The notes under the pieces were generated by a model. That model saw only the letters and a program-made list of their open reading frames with translations, was not told where the DNA came from and did no database searches. This document shows, one piece after another, positions 4,921-60,176 of a stretch of 64,000 bases of DNA. A program made the translations under genes and the position numbers. Position 1 is the first letter of the stretch. Every line of letters begins with the position of its first letter. The DNA is from Comamonadaceae bacterium ALPHA2B. GTDB taxonomy: Bacteria; Pseudomonadota; Gammaproteobacteria; Burkholderiales; Burkholderiaceae_C. The stretch is from positions 1 through 64,000 of the forward strand of contig SCOE01000016.1 in assembly GCA_005503065.1 (NCBI GenBank), in the 5' to 3' direction.

Positions 4921-5466
4921 TCACACCGTCAACGCGCCTCGGAAGCCGCGCGCCGCGTAGTACGACTGCACGCCGTTGTGGTACGTGAAGACCTGGCCGT
5001 AGCGCCGGTCGCAAAACAGTGCGCCACCCAGCTTGCGCATCGTGGGCGGCGTGGCGATCCAACTCGAGGTCTTGAGGTCGAACTCGCCGAGCTGCTGCAA
5101 CTGGCGGTACTGCGCCTCGGTCAGCAGCTCGATGCCGAGCTCGGCGGCCATCTCGACGGCGCTGCCGGCGGGTGCGTGCTCCTTGCGTGATTCGCGCGCG
5201 GCGCGGTCGTAGCACAGGCTGCGGCGGCCGGCTGGGCTCTCGGGCGCGCAGTCGCAGAACACGACACCTTCGGCCTGCGGATGGCGGCCGATCACGTCGG
5301 GCTCGCCGCCGGTGGCTTCCATCGCCTGCAGGGTCTTCAGCGCCTTCGCGTTCGATTCGAGCCGGGCCTGGACCTCGGTCCACGCGATGCCGGCGTGGCG
5401 TTGCGGGTGCTTGTCGAAGCGGGCTTTCAGTGTGTGAAGCAAGTTGTCTGTTTCGGTCGGGGTCAT
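4921..5466 (-). CDS. DUF4256 family protein
   Basis: 181 aa, soluble. Recognisable family stretches are LHTLKARFDKHPQRHAGIAW near the N-terminus, GEPDVIG and VVFCDCAPESPAGRRSLCYD in the middle, and SSWIATPPTMRKLGGALFCD with VFTYHNGVQSYYAARGFRG at the end. These match the DUF4256 family; no activity is established that I know of. ATG 5466 gives the normal family start (MTPTETDNLL). It is followed on the same strand side by a separate small membrane-protein gene 33 bases away. Confidence 0.85.
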   Translation of the reverse strand: MTPTETDNLLHTLKARFDKHPQRHAGIAWTEVQARLESNAKALKTLQAMEATGGEPDVIGRHPQAEGVVFCDCAPESPAGRRSLCYDRAARESRKEHAPAGSAVEMAAELGIELLTEAQYRQLQQLGEFDLKTSSWIATPPTMRKLGGALFCDRRYGQVFTYHNGVQSYYAARGFRGALTV

Positions 5467-5498
5467 GGGGTGGGCGTGAAGGGATGAAGCGGTCGGCT

Positions 5499-5921
5499 TC
5501 AGGGGCTGAGCGCGATGAGGCTCCACACGATCGCGACCAGCTGCGCGATGTTGATGAGGATGGCCCACACATGGAGCTTGCGAAAGCCCGGGATCGCGTC
5601 CATGAAATCGCCCTGGATGCGCGAGCCCAGCGCGTCCATGCTGGGGATGACGCGCCGTCGCAGCAGCAGGGCCACCAGCGCCAGCGCGGCGGCGCCGCAG
5701 GCCACGCCCGGCCGCCCGGCGATCCCGTAGCTCAGCGCGGTGGCGCCGGCGGTGATGAAGGCGGCCCGGTAGTAGACGTTGAAGAAGCCGCGCACGAAGC
5801 GCGCATCGAGCGGCGTGTCGTGCCGCAGGATGAGCAGCGGGATCGCGCCCATGATGAAGTAGGCGGTGGTGACGAGCAGCGCCACCGTGAAGAAGAGCGC
5901 GGCAATGATGGCGGCGGACAT
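5499..5921 (-). CDS. Small integral membrane protein (4 predicted TM segments)
   Basis: 140 aa with hydrophobic segments at about residues 4-30, 50-68, 71-86 and 116-138. I do not recognise a named family with confidence; DUF2269-like or similar is possible. The segment FVRGFFNVYYRAAFITAGATA between the first two segments carries conserved-looking aromatic and basic residues. It lies between putA and the DUF4256 gene on the same strand. Its start is 77 bases from the putA stop, so it could be a downstream cistron of the putA transcript. Confidence 0.7.
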   Translation of the reverse strand: MSAAIIAALFFTVALLVTTAYFIMGAIPLLILRHDTPLDARFVRGFFNVYYRAAFITAGATALSYGIAGRPGVACGAAALALVALLLRRRVIPSMDALGSRIQGDFMDAIPGFRKLHVWAILINIAQLVAIVWSLIALSP

Positions 5922-36050: not shown

Positions 36051-37031
36051 TCAGGCCGTGCTGCCGCGCAGCCGGTCGATGAGCCCGTTGAGCGACTCCA
36101 GCGAGCCGAAATGGATCGCCAGTTCGCCGCTCTCCTCCACCTTGCCGCCGCGCTTGCTGCGCTTCTTGATGCGCACCTCGACCTCGGCCGTCAGCAGATC
36201 GGCCAGTTCCTCCTCGACGCGCTGCAGGTCGCGCGATTTCTCGGCGGCACCGCCGCGCCGCACGGGCGCCGTGAGGTTGAACTCCGCGGCCAGCTTCTTG
36301 ACCAGCGACTCCGCTTCGCGCACCGACAGCTTCTTCGCCACGATCTGGTTGGCCGCCGTGATCTGCGTTGCGCGGTCCAGCGCCAGGAGCGCGCGCGCAT
36401 GGCCCATGTCGACGTCGCCGGCCATCAGCAGGCCCTGCACCGGTTCGGCGAGATTGAGCAGGCGCAGCAGGTTGCTGGCCGCGCTGCGCGAGCGGCCCAC
36501 GGCCTGCGCCGCCGCCTCGTGCGTGAGGCCGAACTCGTTCACCAGCCGCTGCAGGCCCTGGGCCTCTTCGAGCGGGTTCAGGTCTTCGCGCTGGATGTTC
36601 TCGATCAGCGACATCGCCGCGGCGGCCTCGTTGGGCACGTCGCGCACCAGCACCGGCACCTCGGCCAGACCCGCCAGCTTCGCGGCGCGGAAGCGCCGCT
36701 CGCCGGCGATGATTTCGAAGGGCGCGTTCTTGGCGGCCGCCTGCACGGCGTCGAGGCGGCGCACGAGGATGGGTTGCATGATCCCCTGCGCCTTGATGCT
36801 CTCGGCCAGCTCGTACAGGGCGCCCTCGTCCATGCGCGTGCGCGGCTGGTAGACGCCGGGGACCATCTGGTCGAGCGCGAGCGTGCTGGGATTGCCGTCG
36901 CGCCCGGCCGGCGCGCTCGCGCCCTCGCCGTCGTCGCTGCCGCTGTCGCGCGATGCGCCTGCGTTGCCGGCGGCAGGGCCGAGCAGGGCTTCGAGTCCGC
37001 GGCCGAGGCCCTTGGGTTTCTTGGTGGCCAT
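36051..37031 (-). CDS. parB: Chromosome partitioning protein ParB
   Basis: 326 aa. MATKKPKGLGRGLEALLG start, then the ParB/Sulfiredoxin CTPase domain (VYQPRTRMDEGALYELAESI, IIAGERRFRAAKLAGL, SLIENIQREDLNPLEEAQGL), the HTH (LTHEAAAQAVGRSRSAASNL) and the C-terminal dimerisation domain. It loads on parS and spreads as a CTP-dependent clamp. Its start overlaps the upstream hydrolase stop (TGATG). Two perfect parS sites lie 2-3 kb away in rsmG and mnmG. Confidence 0.97.
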   Translation of the reverse strand: MATKKPKGLGRGLEALLGPAAGNAGASRDSGSDDGEGASAPAGRDGNPSTLALDQMVPGVYQPRTRMDEGALYELAESIKAQGIMQPILVRRLDAVQAAAKNAPFEIIAGERRFRAAKLAGLAEVPVLVRDVPNEAAAAMSLIENIQREDLNPLEEAQGLQRLVNEFGLTHEAAAQAVGRSRSAASNLLRLLNLAEPVQGLLMAGDVDMGHARALLALDRATQITAANQIVAKKLSVREAESLVKKLAAEFNLTAPVRRGGAAEKSRDLQRVEEELADLLTAEVEVRIKKRSKRGGKVEESGELAIHFGSLESLNGLIDRLRGSTA

Positions 37032-37591
37032 CAGGGGGTCTTCGTGGTGTGGGGGTTCATCAGGTCGAGCAGCAGCGCGCGGCCTTCGGGCCAATCGCCC
37101 AGGCCCGAGTCGGCGTTGACATGGCCGCGCGCACCGAGGTCGACGAAGCGCGCGCCCCAGTCGGCGGCGAGGCCGCGGGCACGATCGGCGCTGCAATACG
37201 GGTCGTCGGTCGAGCCGACCAGAATCGAAGGAAAAGGCAGGCGCTGGCGCACGATGGGCGCCCAGCCGGGGATCTGCTGGCGCAGATCGTCCCGCTCCAG
37301 GTCGCCCGGCGCCACCAGCAGCGCGCCCCCCACCCGGCCGGTGTGGCGCGAGTGCGCGGCCCAGGCCGCGACCAGCAGGCAGCCCATGCTGTGGGCCGCG
37401 AGGACGACCGGGCCCTCGGCAGCGAGCACCGCCTCCTCGAGCTGGGCCGACCAGTCGCCGCGCAGTGGGCGCATCCAGTCGTGCTGCTGCACCCGCCGGT
37501 CGCCGTGCAGCACCTCCCAGCGGCTTTGCCAGTGGCCGGGGCCGCTGTTCTGCCAGCCGGGCAGCAGGAGCACTTCAGGGGACGCTGTCAT
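37031..37591 (-). CDS. RBBP9/YdeN-family serine hydrolase inside the par operon
   Basis: 186 aa. EVLLLPGWQNSGPGHWQSRW at the start, nucleophile elbow LAAHSMGCLLVAAW and the end SILVGSTDDPYCSADRA with ARGHVNADSGLGDWPEGR (catalytic Asp and His) are the marks of the RBBP9/DUF1057 alpha/beta hydrolases. It lies between parA and parB on the same strand and overlaps the parB start by one base (TGATG), so its translation is coupled to ParB. Its role in or beside partitioning is unknown. Confidence 0.88.
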   Translation of the reverse strand: MTASPEVLLLPGWQNSGPGHWQSRWEVLHGDRRVQQHDWMRPLRGDWSAQLEEAVLAAEGPVVLAAHSMGCLLVAAWAAHSRHTGRVGGALLVAPGDLERDDLRQQIPGWAPIVRQRLPFPSILVGSTDDPYCSADRARGLAADWGARFVDLGARGHVNADSGLGDWPEGRALLLDLMNPHTTKTP

Positions 37592-37593
37592 CT

Positions 37594-37642
37594 GCTATTC
37601 TTTTGATAGCTGCTCGCGCAAGCAGGACGGGCGTTACAGGCC
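37594..37642 (+). repeat. GCTATC-family repeat R5, running into the parA stop
   Basis: GCTATTCTTTTGATAGC (37594-37610) is followed by a G+C part ending GGACGGGCGTTACAGGCC. The last two codons and stop of parA (stop at 37634-37636) lie inside the repeat, so the repeat supplies the parA 3' end. Confidence 0.8.
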
Positions 37643-38518
37643 GTTTTCATCTGAAACGCCGGATGCGGCGGGCGCTGCGGCCGGCACCACGGCCGGCGGC
37701 GCCACCACCGGCGGTGCCGGCTGCGCGAAGGCGCTGGCCGGCGGCATCTTCTTCACCAGCTCCTCGGCGAAGGCGATGAAGGCCTGGCTGCCGCGGGCCG
37801 AGGGGTCGAACACCACGCCCGGCAGGCCGTAGCTGGGCGCCTCGGCCAGCCGCACGTTGCGCGGGATGACGGTGTCGAAGACCTTGTCGCCGAAGTGCGC
37901 CTTGAGCTGTTCACTGACCTGCTGCTGCAGCGTGATGCGCGGATCGAACATGACGCGCAGCAAGCCGATGATCTGCAGGTTCTTGTTGAGGTTGGCGTGC
38001 ACCTGCTTGATGGTGTTGACCAGGTCGGTGAGCCCTTCGAGCGCGAAGTACTCGCACTGCATGGGCACGATCACGCCGTGCGCGGCGCACAGGCCGTTGA
38101 GCGTCAGCAGGCTCAAGGACGGCGGGCAGTCGATGAGGATGAAGTCGTACTCCGCGCCCACACCGGCCAGCGCGGTGCGCAGGCGCTTCTCGCGGCGGTC
38201 GAGCGCCACCATCTCGACCTCCGCACCGGCCAGCTCGCGGTTGGCGGCCAGCACGTCGTAGGCGCAGCCGGCTTCGACCAGCTTCTCGGGACGGATGCGC
38301 GCCTCGGCCACCGAGGCCGACTCGAGCAGCACGTCGTACACCGTGAGTTCGGCCTCGCGCTTGTCGACACCCGACCCCATGGTGGCATTGCCCTGCGGGT
38401 CGAGGTCGATCATCAGCACGCGCTGGCCGACCTTGGCCAGCCCGGCGGCGAGGTTCACGGTGGTGGTGGTCTTCCCGACCCCACCCTTCTGATTGGCGAT
38501 GCAGAAAATCTTGGCCAT
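37634..38518 (-). CDS. parA: Chromosome partitioning ATPase ParA
   Basis: 294 aa. Deviant Walker [18 protein letters not shown], then LMIDLDPQGNATMGSGVDKR, ILIDCPPSLSLLTLNGLCAA and VMFDPRITLQQQVSEQLKAH: a chromosomal ParA/Soj protein. The C-terminus beyond about residue 255 is a Pro/Ala-rich tail (QPAPPVVAPPAVVPAAAPAA) longer than in most homologues. With ParB and parS it segregates the origin region. The LysE-type gene ends 5 bases upstream of its start, so transcription is probably shared from mnmG on. Confidence 0.97.
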   Translation of the reverse strand: MAKIFCIANQKGGVGKTTTTVNLAAGLAKVGQRVLMIDLDPQGNATMGSGVDKREAELTVYDVLLESASVAEARIRPEKLVEAGCAYDVLAANRELAGAEVEMVALDRREKRLRTALAGVGAEYDFILIDCPPSLSLLTLNGLCAAHGVIVPMQCEYFALEGLTDLVNTIKQVHANLNKNLQIIGLLRVMFDPRITLQQQVSEQLKAHFGDKVFDTVIPRNVRLAEAPSYGLPGVVFDPSARGSQAFIAFAEELVKKMPPASAFAQPAPPVVAPPAVVPAAAPAASGVSDENGL

Positions 38519-39228: not shown

Positions 39229-39861
39229 TCATTCCGCGCTTTTTCGTGCCCAGACGATGCACCGCTCGGCGTCCAGACCGGGCACAGCAAGCTGTTCCAC
39301 GTGAAACACGTCGACGCTCTGCGGCAAGGCGGCGATCTCGTCCGAGGGCACCTTGCCCTTCATCGCCATCCAGATGCCGTCCTTGGCCAGGAGATGATTC
39401 GACCCCGCGACGAAATCCGCGAGCGAGGCAAAGGCACGCGAGCTGATCACCTCGTACCCACCTTGCAAGGACTCGACGCGGGCATGCACACCGCGGAGAT
39501 TGGGCAACTTCAGCTCCCCCGCCGCCTGCTGCACGAATGCCGTCTTCTTGGCCACGGCGTCGAGGCAGCTGACCTCGACGTCGGGGCGCAGGATCGCGAT
39601 GACGACTCCGGGCAGGCCAGCGCCGGCCCCCACATCGAGCAGGCGGGCCGCACCCGGACGCTGCCGGTTCAAGGGCCCGACTGCGGCCAGGCTGTCCAGC
39701 AGATGGTGCGTGCGCACGCTGGCCTCATCGCGCAGCGCCGTCAGGTTGTAGACCTTGTTCCACTTCAGGATCAGCGCACCGTAGGCCTCCAGTTGCTCGA
39801 TCTGCCGGGCGCTCGGCGCCAGGCCCAGCGCGCGGGCGCCCTCCTCCAGCACGATCGTCAT
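39229..39861 (-). CDS. rsmG: 16S rRNA (guanine527-N7)-methyltransferase RsmG
   Basis: 210 aa. [20 protein letters not shown] and the AdoMet-binding [20 protein letters not shown], then [17 protein letters not shown] and [12 protein letters not shown] are GidB/RsmG signatures. It methylates N7 of G527 of 16S rRNA; its loss gives low-level streptomycin resistance. Its start overlaps the mnmG stop (ATGA, 39858-39861). A perfect parS site lies inside the gene at 39293-39308 and encodes part of FHVEQLA. Confidence 0.97.
39293..39308. other. parS site 1, inside rsmG
   Basis: TGTTCCACGTGAAACA is a perfect match to the chromosomal parS consensus TGTTNCACGTGAAACA. It lies in the 3' half of rsmG, about 2.3 kb from the parB start. 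ParB should load here. Confidence 0.95.
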
Positions 39862-41804
39862 GCGGCAGCCGGCTCGGTCGCGGATGTCGTCTGGAAGGCC
39901 TTGTAGCCGCCCTTGCGCAGGTGGATCATGAGCAGCGAGATGGCCGCCGGCGTGATGCCCGAGATGCGCGAGGCCTGGCCCAGCGTTTCGGGCCGGTGCT
40001 TGGCCAGCTTCTGGCGCGCCTCGATACTGAGGGCCTGCACCTGCATGTAATCCAGCTCCGGCGGCAGGCGCAGGTTCTCGTAGGTGGCGGCACGCTGCAC
40101 CTCGTCGTGCTGGCGTTCGATGTAGCCGCTGTACTTGGCCGCGATCTCCACCTGCTCGACTTGATCGGCGGCCAGCGCCTGTTCGGGCGCGTACTTGCCC
40201 CCGTCCAGCGACAGCAGCGCCTCGTAGCTCACCCCCGGCCGACGCAGCAGGTCACCGAGGTTGTACTCGTGCTCGATGGCCTTGCCCAGGACACGTTCCG
40301 ATTCGCTCGCCGGCAGGTTGCGCGGGTTCACCCACGTCGACTTGAGGCGCTCTGTTTCACGTGAAACAGCATCGCGTTTGCGGCTGAAGGCGTCCCAGCG
40401 CGCGTCGTCCACCAGCCCCAGCTTGCGGCCGGTCTCGGTCAGCCGCATGTCGGCGTTGTCCTCGCGCAGCTGCAGCCGGAACTCGGCCCGGCTGGTGAAC
40501 ATGCGGTACGGCTCCGTCACGCCCTTGGTGATGAGGTCGTCGACCAGCACACCCAGGTACGCCTCGTCCCGGCGCGGCACCCACGCGTCCTCGCCCCGGC
40601 ACTGCAGCGCCGCGTTGATCCCGGCGAACAGGCCCTGTGCCGCGGCCTCCTCGTAGCCGGTGGTGCCGTTGATCTGGCCGGCAAAAAACAGGCCCTGGAT
40701 CGCACGCGTCTCGAAGCTGCTCTTCAGCCCGCGCGGATCGAAGTAGTCGTATTCGATGGCATAGCCCGGCCGCAGGATGTGCGCGTTCTCGAGCCCCGGC
40801 ATCGAGCGCACCAGCGCGTACTGGATGTCGAAGGGCAGGCTCGTCGAGATGCCGTTCGGGTAGTACTCGTTCGTCGTCAGGCCCTCGGGCTCCAGGAAGA
40901 TCTGGTGGCTGTCCTTGTCGGCGAAGCGGTTGATCTTGTCTTCCACGCTCGGGCAGTAGCGCGGCCCCACGCCGTCGATCTTGCCGGTGAACATCGGGCT
41001 GCGGTCGAAGCCGGACCGGATGATCTCGTGCGTGCGGGCGTTGGTGTGGGTGATCCAGCACGGCACCTGCTGCGGATGCATGTCCGCGCGGCCCATGAAG
41101 CTGAACACCGGCATGGCGGCGTTGTCGCTGCCCGGCATGCCGTCGCCGGGCTGTTCGGTGCACTTGCTGAAGTCGATGGTCCGGCCATCCAGGCGCGGTG
41201 GCGTGCCGGTCTTCAGTCGGCCCTGGGGCAGCTTCAGCTCCTTCAGCCGCGCCGACAGGCTCACGGCCGGTGGGTCGCCGGCTCGGCCGGCCTGGTAGTT
41301 GTCCAGGCCCACATGGATGCGGCCGTCCAGGAAGGTGCCGGCCGTCAGCACCACCGTCCGCGCCCGGAAGGCGATGCCCACCTGGGTCACGGCACCGACC
41401 ACGCGGTCGCCCTCCACCATCAGGTCGTCCACCGCCTGCTGGAAGAGCATCAGGTTGGGCTGGTTCTCCAGCCGGCGCCGGATGGCCGCCTTGTAGAGGA
41501 TGCGGTCGGCCTGCGCCCGCGTCGCACGCACCGCCGGGCCCTTGCTCGAGTTGAGGATGCGGAACTGGATGCCCGCCTCGTCGGTCGCGATGGCCATCGC
41601 GCCGCCCAGCGCGTCGACCTCCTTCACCAGGTGCCCCTTGCCGATACCGCCGATCGACGGGTTGCAGCTCATCTGGCCCAGCGTCTCGATGTTGTGGGTC
41701 AGCAGCAGGGTCTTCGCGCCCATGCGCGCCGAGGCGAGCGCGGCCTCGGTGCCGGCATGGCCACCGCCGACGACGATCACGTCGAATTCTTCCGGGTACA
41801 GCAT
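39858..41804 (-). CDS. mnmG: tRNA U34 5-carboxymethylaminomethyl modification enzyme MnmG (GidA)
   Basis: 648 aa. FAD motif [20 protein letters not shown], then [20 protein letters not shown] with the family Cys, [40 protein letters not shown] and [20 protein letters not shown]. With MnmE it makes cmnm5U34 in several tRNAs. It is the first gene of the mnmG-rsmG-LysE-parA-hydrolase-parB run. A perfect parS lies inside it at 40353-40368. It carries no unusual feature otherwise; length is standard. Confidence 0.98.
40353..40368. other. parS site 2, inside mnmG
   Basis: TGTTTCACGTGAAACA, a fully palindromic parS, lies in the 3' third of mnmG, 1,060 bases from parS site 1. Two clustered sites are typical of an origin-proximal ParB loading centre. 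Confidence 0.96.
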
Positions 41805-58128: not shown

Positions 58129-58548
58129 ATGACCCCATCCGCACCGGTGGCCATCGGTGTCGCGGCCGAACGCTCGGGCGTGTCGGCCCGCATGGTGCGC
58201 CACTACGAAGGGCTGGGCCTGCTGCCTTCCGTGGCGCGCACCGAGGCCGGCTACCGGCAGTACACGGCGGCCGACATCCACACCCTGCGCTTCATCAAGC
58301 GCGCCCGCGACCTCGGCTTCTCGATGGACGAGATCGCCGAGCTCGTGGGCCTGTGGCACAACCGCCGCCGCGCGAGCGCCAGCGTCAAGCGCATCGCGCA
58401 GAAGCACCTCCTCGACCTGGAGGCGCGCATCGCCGGCCTCCAGGCGATGCAGCGCACCCTGTCGCAGCTGGTTCATTGCTGCCACGGCGACGGGCGGCCC
58501 GACTGCCCGATCCTCGACGACCTGGCCGGCAGCACGCCGGCGTTCTGA
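58129..58548 (+). CDS. cueR: MerR-family copper-responsive regulator CueR
   Basis: 139 aa. N-terminal winged helix: IGVAAERSGVSARMVRHYEG and LGLLPSVARTEAGYRQYTAA, then a coiled-coil dimerisation helix and the metal loop with Cys118 and Cys126 (CHGDGRPDC), a C-x7-C spacing characteristic of Cu+-sensing CueR. It should activate copA and copZ when Cu+ binds, through the 19-bp-spaced promoters at 57759-57904. ATG 58129 is the first in-frame start after the copZ stop. Confidence 0.95.
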   Translation: MTPSAPVAIGVAAERSGVSARMVRHYEGLGLLPSVARTEAGYRQYTAADIHTLRFIKRARDLGFSMDEIAELVGLWHNRRRASASVKRIAQKHLLDLEARIAGLQAMQRTLSQLVHCCHGDGRPDCPILDDLAGSTPAF

Positions 58549-58624
58549 GCGTCGCCGACCCCTCTGCACGGCCCTTCGTGTCCTTCGGTGCCCCGGCCCT
58601 GCCCGGCCGGCGGCGCCTGGACCG

Positions 58625-59045
58625 CCGCTTTCCCACAGCGCGTCGGTTCTCCCCACAAAGCTTGGATAACTTTGTGGGCAACTCATGCACTTTGTTGTAA
58701 AGCTTTCGCAACCTGTTGATTTTAAAGGGAAATCAACAGTCTGCTGATTTTTTGTGCAGTGCACATTTCCGCCGGCGCGGCCTTCTTTCCCAGATTTCCG
58801 GACCCCTGTCAAAGGACAACTCTGGGGAGAGTTCTGGCACAAGCGGGGGCTTATCCACAAGCCGGCGCGGTACCGCCGGGTTGTTCGCTGCGGCGCGACA
58901 GCAGGGTCGCACGGGTGCGCACAGGGGTTCGGGCACGGCAACTGCCTGTCGGCGCTGAAGAAAATCGCCCTGTCCACAGCAAGGCGCGACCCTTAGCTAC
59001 TACTACTAATCAGAAATAGAAGACATAAGAATGAATTCAGGGGAC
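58625..59045. other. Probable chromosomal replication origin (oriC)
   Basis: A perfect DnaA box TTATCCACA lies at 58851-58859. Weaker boxes: CTTGGATAA (58661-58669), TGTGGGCAA (58673-58681) and CTGTCCACA (58970-58978). The last is followed, after an 18 base G+C-rich spacer, by CTACTACTACTAAT (58997-59010) and an A+T-rich tract to about 59038. That order (box, G+C spacer, DnaA-trio repeats, unwinding tract) is the basal unwinding system described for bacterial origins. parAB/parS, mnmG and rsmG within 23 kb support it. dnaA is not adjacent. Confidence 0.7.
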
Positions 59046-59057
59046 CGTGCCCGTTGG

Positions 59058-59126
59058 AAAAAAAGACCGTGGCCGGTTCCGGCCGTGCGCGCCCGGGCAA
59101 AAAAAGAAGCCGGCTGACGCCGGCTT
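59058..59126 (-). terminator. Tandem minus-strand terminators downstream of the TerB/DUF697-like gene
   Basis: Reading the minus strand, AAGCCGGCGTCAGCCGGCTT then a C and TTTTTTT (about 59098-59126), then a second stem GGCCGGAACCGGCC and later TTTTTTT (59058-59084). Together they would stop transcription before it reaches the DnaA-trio tract. Confidence 0.8.
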
Positions 59127-59168
59127 GAAAGATGGAAGGGCGACGTTTCGTCGCCGATGCCCGGGGCT

Positions 59169-60176
59169 TCAGGCGCCGCGGACCATGGCCAGCACCTTTC
59201 CCGCGTCGAGCGTGCGTGCCTGGGCCTGCATGTCCGGCAGATAGCGCGACTGCAGCGCCTGGCCTTCCTGCACCACACCCGCGAAGGCGTCCTTGAGGGT
59301 CTGGGCCGACAACTGCCGTCCGCCGGCGTAGTAGCGCTTGGCCACGTGGCCCAGCGCATAGGTGCTGGCGAAGCTCATGCCCGAGCTCACGGCCTGCCGG
59401 CCCACACCGCGCAGCAGTCCGCCGCCAACCTTGCCGAGCAGCCCGCCCAGGAGCTTTCGGCCTGCCTGCTCGAGGTACTGCGAGGTGAGGCCCACGCCGA
59501 CGGTGGCCAGGAAGTCCTTGATGTGGCCCTTGTCGAGTTCGTAGCCGTGCGCCTTGCCGATGCCGTACACCAGCTTCATCTGCAGCGGGATGATGGCCAG
59601 CGTGGACAGGGTTTCCGGCAACAGTTCGAGCGCACCGTTGAGGATGGAGGCGCGGAGGATCTGGGCATCCAGTGCGGCCTCGTCGACCTGGGCTGCCGCC
59701 GGGGTGGGCGTTGCGGCCGGCAGGGATGCCGGCACCGGCACCGGGCCCGCGGCCGCAGGTTCGATGGACGAGAGCATGGCCTCCACCTCGGCGTTGCGTC
59801 CCAGCGGCGCGTCGGCGACGGCCTGGGCCTGTTGCGCAAACTCGGCCGCCGGGCCGGCGGACAGACCGAGGGCGCCTTGCAGTTCGGCCAGGAAGGCCTG
59901 CTCCGGCCCACTCTGGGCGCCGTCGGCATCGCAGACGCACACGGCCATCTCGTAGGCCAGCTGGCGGGCCTCGGCGCCCTGCAGGCCGGCCACGGCGTCG
60001 GCCAGTGACACGCGCTTCATCAGCACGTCCTGGTACAGGCCCGACAGATCGCCGGCCTGCGCCAGCCCGTCGGCGATGCGGCGCACCTCCTCCCGCTCGC
60101 GTGCGTGTTTCTCGCCGTCGACGAAGGCGGCCATGAGGCAGAGGGTGACGATGCTGCGGGATTCCTGGGGTGTCAT
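59169..60176 (-). CDS. TerB-like / DUF697-like two-part protein
   Basis: 335 aa. Residues 1-130 form a TerB-like helical domain (TLCLMAAFVDGEKHAREREE, AYEMAVCVCDADGAQSGPEQ with AFLAELQGALGL, the tellurite-resistance TerB pattern). An Ala/Pro linker follows (PVPASLPAATPTPAAAQ). The C-terminal half resembles DUF697/YcjF (NGALELLPETLSTLAIIPLQ, MKLVYGIGKAHGYELDKGHI, KDFLATVGVGLTSQYLEQAG with a Gly-rich hydrophobic stretch). Function unknown; probably membrane-associated. It is placed right beside the origin candidate. Confidence 0.78.
   Translation of the reverse strand: MTPQESRSIVTLCLMAAFVDGEKHAREREEVRRIADGLAQAGDLSGLYQDVLMKRVSLADAVAGLQGAEARQLAYEMAVCVCDADGAQSGPEQAFLAELQGALGLSAGPAAEFAQQAQAVADAPLGRNAEVEAMLSSIEPAAAGPVPVPASLPAATPTPAAAQVDEAALDAQILRASILNGALELLPETLSTLAIIPLQMKLVYGIGKAHGYELDKGHIKDFLATVGVGLTSQYLEQAGRKLLGGLLGKVGGGLLRGVGRQAVSSGMSFASTYALGHVAKRYYAGGRQLSAQTLKDAFAGVVQEGQALQSRYLPDMQAQARTLDAGKVLAMVRGA

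Follow-up and report, generated by a model that had tools for sequence, protein, structure and literature searches.

The segment 58647–59039 of the analyzed DNA is, with a probability of about 0.9, the chromosomal replication origin (oriC) of this Xenophilus genome, present as a single module of the basal unwinding system (BUS) type. The window, i.e. the whole stretch of 64,000 bp, comprises bases 1–64000 of contig C7 (111,549 bases) from a draft genome of 6.0 Mb in 91 contigs. The anatomy, conservation and position of the candidate are read directly from the genomes. The module occupies the 620-bp gap between two genes; these genes and the elements of the module are as follows.

58129–58548, forward strand: gene of a MerR-family regulator (Pfam), the left neighbour; copper-type genes adjoin it
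58647–58681, reverse strand: left block, TTCTCCCCA with two inverted DnaA-box-like sites, kept in 25 modules from 15 Xenophilus genomes
58661 and 58673, read on the reverse strand: the inverted boxes of the left block, TTATCCAAG and TTGCCCACA, respectively
58709–58721, reverse strand: IHF-consensus site CAACCTGTTGATT, the single strict match in the 64-kb window
58848–59028, forward strand: core module as matched by the sequence model R1 (104.5 bits, E 1.2e-29)
58851–58859, forward strand: DnaA box A, TTATCCACA, the sole perfect box in 64 kb
58970–58978, forward strand: DnaA box B, CTGTCCACA, with two mismatches, starting 119 bp after the start of box A
58979–58996, forward strand: 18-bp spacer between box B and the trios
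58997–59008, forward strand: DnaA-trio array CTACTACTACTA, four repeats, 3’-GAT-5’ on the opposite strand
59009–59039, forward strand: A+T-rich tract, the putative unwinding site
59169–60176, reverse strand: gene of a TerB-domain protein (Pfam), the right neighbour

The preliminary description had reported a perfect DnaA box accompanied by weaker ones, and this is confirmed. Six DnaA-box sites with at most two mismatches lie within 58629–58978, the densest 500-bp bin of the window; one of them is perfect (58851) and five have two mismatches, all inside 350 bp. When the window was resampled 200 times with a first-order Markov model, no 400-bp cluster contained more than four sites, and the observed number of six was reached in 0/200, while a perfect box arose in 8/200. 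The cluster exceeds chance, though just one of its six sites has at most one mismatch. The proposed order of box, spacer, trios and A+T tract also proved real, with box B followed by the 18-bp spacer, the trio array and the tract. The A+T content is 66% over 58997–59043, vs approximately 70% G+C for the whole window. Across Xenophilus modules the spacing between boxes A and B is 118–120 bp (117–121 bp were allowed in the search).

The consensus used for the site at 58709–58721 is what we take to be that of IHF. A strict match to it is present in 22 of the 25 Xenophilus modules. This site was absent from the list of elements in the preliminary description. The genome encodes four IHF-alpha-like matches, the top one scoring 116.9 bits, slightly under the curated cut-off of 120.25.

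A BUS consists of one or more DnaA boxes with at least three NAN trios and then A+T DNA, and here four trios, defined as in PMC8287927, follow box B. The module shares with the Bacillus subtilis type described there the order of DnaA box, spacer, 3’-GAT-5’ trios and A+T tract. The published BUS search set a limit of 16 bp for the spacer, less than the 18 bp seen here from the recognisable box, and permits a longer one if the upstream box of a pair is the better (PMC8287927). This spacer, the extra box at a fixed distance of 119 bp, the IHF-type site and the lack of an adjoining dnaA distinguish the module from the B. subtilis-type BUS (PMC8287927). In E. coli oriC an IHF site lies among the boxes, the origin is tens of kb away from dnaA, and mnmG (gidA) is found in the region. 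The module resembles it in the IHF site among boxes, in the distance from dnaA and in having mnmG nearby. It is unlike E. coli oriC in the order of boxes and in the other neighbour genes; moreover, GATC is absent from the gap (58549–59168), and hence there is no sign of SeqA-type control.

By analogy with these systems, ATP-DnaA would bind boxes A and B, and IHF, given its known biology, could bend the DNA at 58709 and thus bring the left boxes into the complex. As in known BUS origins, a DnaA filament starting at box B would then spread along the trio strand and unwind the A+T tract, where DnaB would presumably be loaded. ParB bound to parS approximately 18 kb away would segregate the origins.

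The 551-bp stretch 58560–59110 has a DNA match in all 14 Xenophilus genus mates (14/14). In the alignment of 25 modules from 15 Xenophilus genomes the elements always come in the same order: TCCCCA, the pair of inverted boxes, the IHF-type site, a block TGTCAAAG-ACAA-TGGGGA, then boxes A and B, the spacer, the trios and the A+T tract. The trios are lost in one module each of G003 and G004. A strict pattern of box A, box B and trios matches 120 of 399 genomes of the family, representing 55 of 141 genera; reversed, as a control, the pattern matches 0/399. We further built a sequence-only model of the core, R1, from 35 training sequences, the window being one of them. At E <= 1e-4 it detects the module in 383/397 genomes of the family, representing 125 of 126 genera; only genomes at least 90% complete were surveyed, and the training genomes make up a small share of them. 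Fourteen of the 397 genomes have no R1 match, five of these belonging to genus g57. The source genome itself gives a single strong match (E 1.2e-29), the runner-up having E 0.62. In an order-level sample 37 of 150 genomes have a match; 32 of these 37 belong to other families, and their matches are weaker. The module is conserved and takes one place per chromosome; where multiple copies have a known location, they cluster together.

The dnaA gene is located on contig C63 and is thus at least approximately 52 kb away from the module, provided that C7 is correctly assembled; the module does not lie within a few kb of dnaA, as it would in a dnaA-linked oriC. A second weak DnaA-family match, with an in-frame stop, was seen on contig C37. 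Seven Xenophilus genomes have module and dnaA on the same contig, 33–212 kb apart. The claim of a chromosomal oriC that is not beside dnaA is well supported. That the origin lies instead at dnaA, the module being a decayed or secondary origin, is very unlikely, although the gene has a perfect box and a box with one mismatch upstream of it, 50 bp apart. When only boxes with at most one mismatch are counted, this pair outscores the module, 4 vs 3, in the source genome, G010 and G008. A stronger box cluster beside dnaA, one part of the contrary outcome envisaged in the preliminary description, is thus seen by that count, but dnaA has neither trios nor an R1 match: no trio was seen by eye at dnaA (5200–5800) or in the gap 3’ of it, and contig C63 gives no match to R1. 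Two boxes 50 bp apart also fit autoregulation of dnaA, the module is intact, and in G012 the KOPS bias shows no switch at dnaA (see below).

The relation to dnaA was followed in two sets of genomes. The first comprised 40 genomes with a module, namely 15 of Xenophilus and 25 with long contigs. In 30 of these 40, the seven Xenophilus genomes above among them, dnaA and the module share a contig, the median distance being 56 kb, and with the strict pattern the module is within 3 kb of dnaA in 2/30. The second set, which overlaps the first and is non-random, consisted of 40 mostly complete genomes of the family, 29 of which have at least two modules and were mostly chosen for that. Here the module is found at dnaA in just nine of the 40 (two of the nine known beforehand), always 3’ of the gene at 55–452 bp, so that the statement that dnaA and rpmH flank oriC in most relatives is not supported by this sample. 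In other families, a match lies 86–310 bp 3’ of dnaA in five of 13 genomes (G044, G476, G509, G510 and G516) and elsewhere in the rest; these 13 were picked from weak matches of the order-level survey. In most of the family genomes sampled the origin is apart from dnaA, and where the two are linked the origin is 3’ of dnaA. In G307 (contig C1) one module is 225 bp 3’ of dnaA and another is 28.6 kb off near mnmG (2357489 and 2386118); this genome is a possible intermediate of origin relocation.

The genes parAB, rsmG and mnmG and the two parS sites lie to the left of the module, at the following positions.

36051–37196, reverse strand: parB (Pfam)
37634–38518, reverse strand: parA (Pfam)
39229–39861, reverse strand: rsmG (Pfam)
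39293–39308, forward strand: parS with one mismatch, within rsmG
39858–41804, reverse strand: mnmG (Pfam, TIGR00136)
40353–40368, forward strand: parS, a perfect palindrome, within mnmG

The sites at 40353 and 39293 were found with what we take to be the parS consensus. All the elements previously named as lying within 23 kb of the module (parAB, two parS sites, mnmG and rsmG) were located in the window. As for the flanking genes, named in the preliminary description as cueR and a TerB/DUF697-like gene, a MerR-family gene on the left and a TerB-domain gene on the right were found; the former is probably CueR-like, judging by the adjoining copper-type genes, and the latter gave no Pfam match to DUF697 and a match to DUF533 below the cut-off. 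The TerB protein is 95% identical to that of X. aerolatus E41, the nearest named relatives being Xenophilus. The position of the module between copper-type genes and a TerB-domain gene could suggest the origin of a plasmid or of an integrated element. Such an origin is extremely improbable given that the chromosomal-type parAB-rsmG-mnmG genes are close by, no Rep domain was found in the 12 translated stretches of the window that were scanned, a TerB relative adjoins the module in both Xenophilus and Variovorax, and the module occurs in 383/397 family genomes.

Strand composition gave a mixed picture. The GC-skew minimum, proposed earlier as a check, falls at or near the module, locally, in two genomes of genera other than Xenophilus. 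In G412 (400 kb examined) the cumulative minimum is at 2951566, inside a module (2951415–2951568) and 250 kb away from dnaA; the test on 4-fold sites favours a point at about 3.036 Mb, 85–90 kb to the right of the modules, by 2.5–3.3 lnL. In G299 an 80-kb stretch that we centred on the module (707419–707596) has a V-shaped skew; its minimum, at 706453, is 1 kb away from that module and 180 kb away from dnaA. In Xenophilus the same check is confounded, has the wrong sign or, with KOPS, points about 110 kb away. The raw cumulative skew there has its maximum near parS and declines to the right of the module; it tracks the coding strand, and genes of both strands are rich in C at third codon positions. 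Raw GC skew was therefore rejected as an origin test in this genus. The coding-strand bias at third positions may account for the raw skew, yet leaves it giving no support. The 4-fold-site test, intended to remove the coding bias, gave no clear effect of the arm in G012, and in G008 (gain of 8.7 lnL, best at 160.7 kb) and G010 (3.7) the effect had the opposite sign.

On contig C1 of G012 dnaA is at 668 kb, the module at 880 kb and the KOPS change point at 992 kb, which puts the change point approximately 110 kb beyond the module on its right; the fit is 9.5 lnL worse at the module and 17 lnL worse at dnaA. Between dnaA and the module the left-arm KOPS bias persists (12 to 35), and hence dnaA is not at the switch. 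KOPS are minus-rich on both sides of the module in C7, G008 and G010, and in G010 the raw GC-skew minimum is near 480 kb (C41), about 106 kb to the right of the module. The KOPS change point, this minimum and the 4-fold effect, which at the module has the wrong sign in G008 and G010, would agree with a true origin near the KOPS switch, some 110 kb away on the right, and with the module serving as a DnaA-titration or regulatory site. We consider this unlikely. No box cluster was found near that switch in the stretches scanned (600–1000 kb of G012 and 300–500 kb of G010); R1 matches the module alone in G010 and G008 and the module pair in G012; and a titration site has no need of a trio array and an A+T tract, or of being family-wide. 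Besides, dnaA is on the right side of the module in five Xenophilus genomes (G004, G005, G008, G010, G014) and on its left side in two (G001, G012), and hence the region has been rearranged within Xenophilus, which may well blur the composition signal. Apart from the pairs at dnaA promoters, no further box cluster was seen in the stretches scanned, which cover 400 kb in G012, 200 kb in each of G010 and G008, and 110 kb in C7. One isolated perfect box is at 894064 in G012. An A+T peak at 470.5 kb in G010 and its counterpart in G008 were discarded as an intergenic stretch with one 2-mismatch box.

With the module taken as oriC, Xenophilus obtains a precise origin candidate and, via R1, so do nearly all genera of the family. 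In Burkholderia cenocepacia, a model species of the same family, the origin of chromosome 1 is termed uncertain (PMC4948915). A specialist would probably not expect three of the findings: that one model covers the family, that oriC and dnaA are usually apart, and that modules are repeated. Separation as such has a precedent in the group. Cupriavidus metallidurans CH34 presumably belongs to the same GTDB family as the source genome. On its chromosome 1 the GC-skew switch is approximately 90 kb away from dnaA, beside 213 nt with three perfect DnaA boxes (PMC2864759), and an origin separate from dnaA is thus in the literature for this group; the likeness to our module concerns its position.

The source genome has one module, whereas more than one is present in eight of its 14 Xenophilus mates: two in G001 (L036), G006 (L041), G007 (L042), G009 (L044), G011 (L046) and G012 (L047), and three in G003 (L038) and G004 (L039). 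These tandem modules are approximately 0.5–0.7 kb apart. In the six two-copy species, copy 1 and copy 2 form separate clades (support 0.99 and 1.00), and hence the duplication predates the split of these species. Invariant columns are concentrated in the motifs in both copy 1 (58/64 vs 192/319 in the remainder, Fisher P 5e-7) and copy 2 (57/64 vs 204/320, Fisher P 2e-5), keeping in mind that columns from related species are not independent. Within the left block, columns 58661–58681 are invariant in 20/21 cases for copy 1 and 21/21 for copy 2. Three of the four consensus trios are retained in copy 1 and two of four in copy 2, on which account the second copy may be weakened.

Across the family, two or three R1 matches were tallied by hand in 126 of 397 family genomes from 47 genera, decayed copies included. 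With the strict pattern, 20 of 120 genomes have at least two modules, in 19 cases on one contig; 18 of these 19 have them in one direction, and the span is 0.3–30 kb. In G258, which was counted among the multi-module genomes, the two copies are nearly identical and one of them is at the end of a contig, so the duplication may have arisen in assembly.

The repeated modules suggest an origin that multiplies, decays and moves. Tentatively, and with somewhat less than even odds in our estimate, the oriC of the family may be a self-contained module of 0.2–0.4 kb that multiplies beside itself, more than one complete copy per chromosome being under selection while old copies decay and the origin drifts away from dnaA; many species would then carry a module array, with several modules possibly opening. 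The repeats bear on whether bacteria retain more than one complete origin copy per chromosome and on how an essential origin can relocate. Bipartite or double origins were described by Gao 2015 (PMC4403523) as box clusters predicted both at dnaA and at another gene, Ralstonia pickettii being among the examples. The multi-module relatives resemble them in having more than one origin-like cluster per chromosome, and are unlike them in that whole modules, with the IHF-type site and mostly with trios, are repeated close together (PMC4403523). Single-chromosome strains of Vibrio cholerae have two origins, both active in NSCV1 and one silent in NSCV2; these are two different origin types joined by chromosome fusion, vs copies of one module in the present case (PMC6284228). 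Nothing on repeated oriC modules in Burkholderiales was found in the titles and abstract openings searched.

Loci around the TerB gene (L186–L265) contain the module in 40 of 80 cases overall. The TerB-domain gene adjoins the module in all seven Xenophilus-type loci (L186–L192), and in 32 of 50 loci titled Variovorax the module is on the opposite side of the gene. Variovorax sp. UMC13 (L196:7099–9662) and V. boronicumulans Xaverov 112 (L243:7021–9693) each have three full modules and one truncated module within 2.7 kb. The truncated one occupies the place beside TerB where other Variovorax usually have their single module; these arrays are consistent with the birth of modules by duplication and their death by decay.
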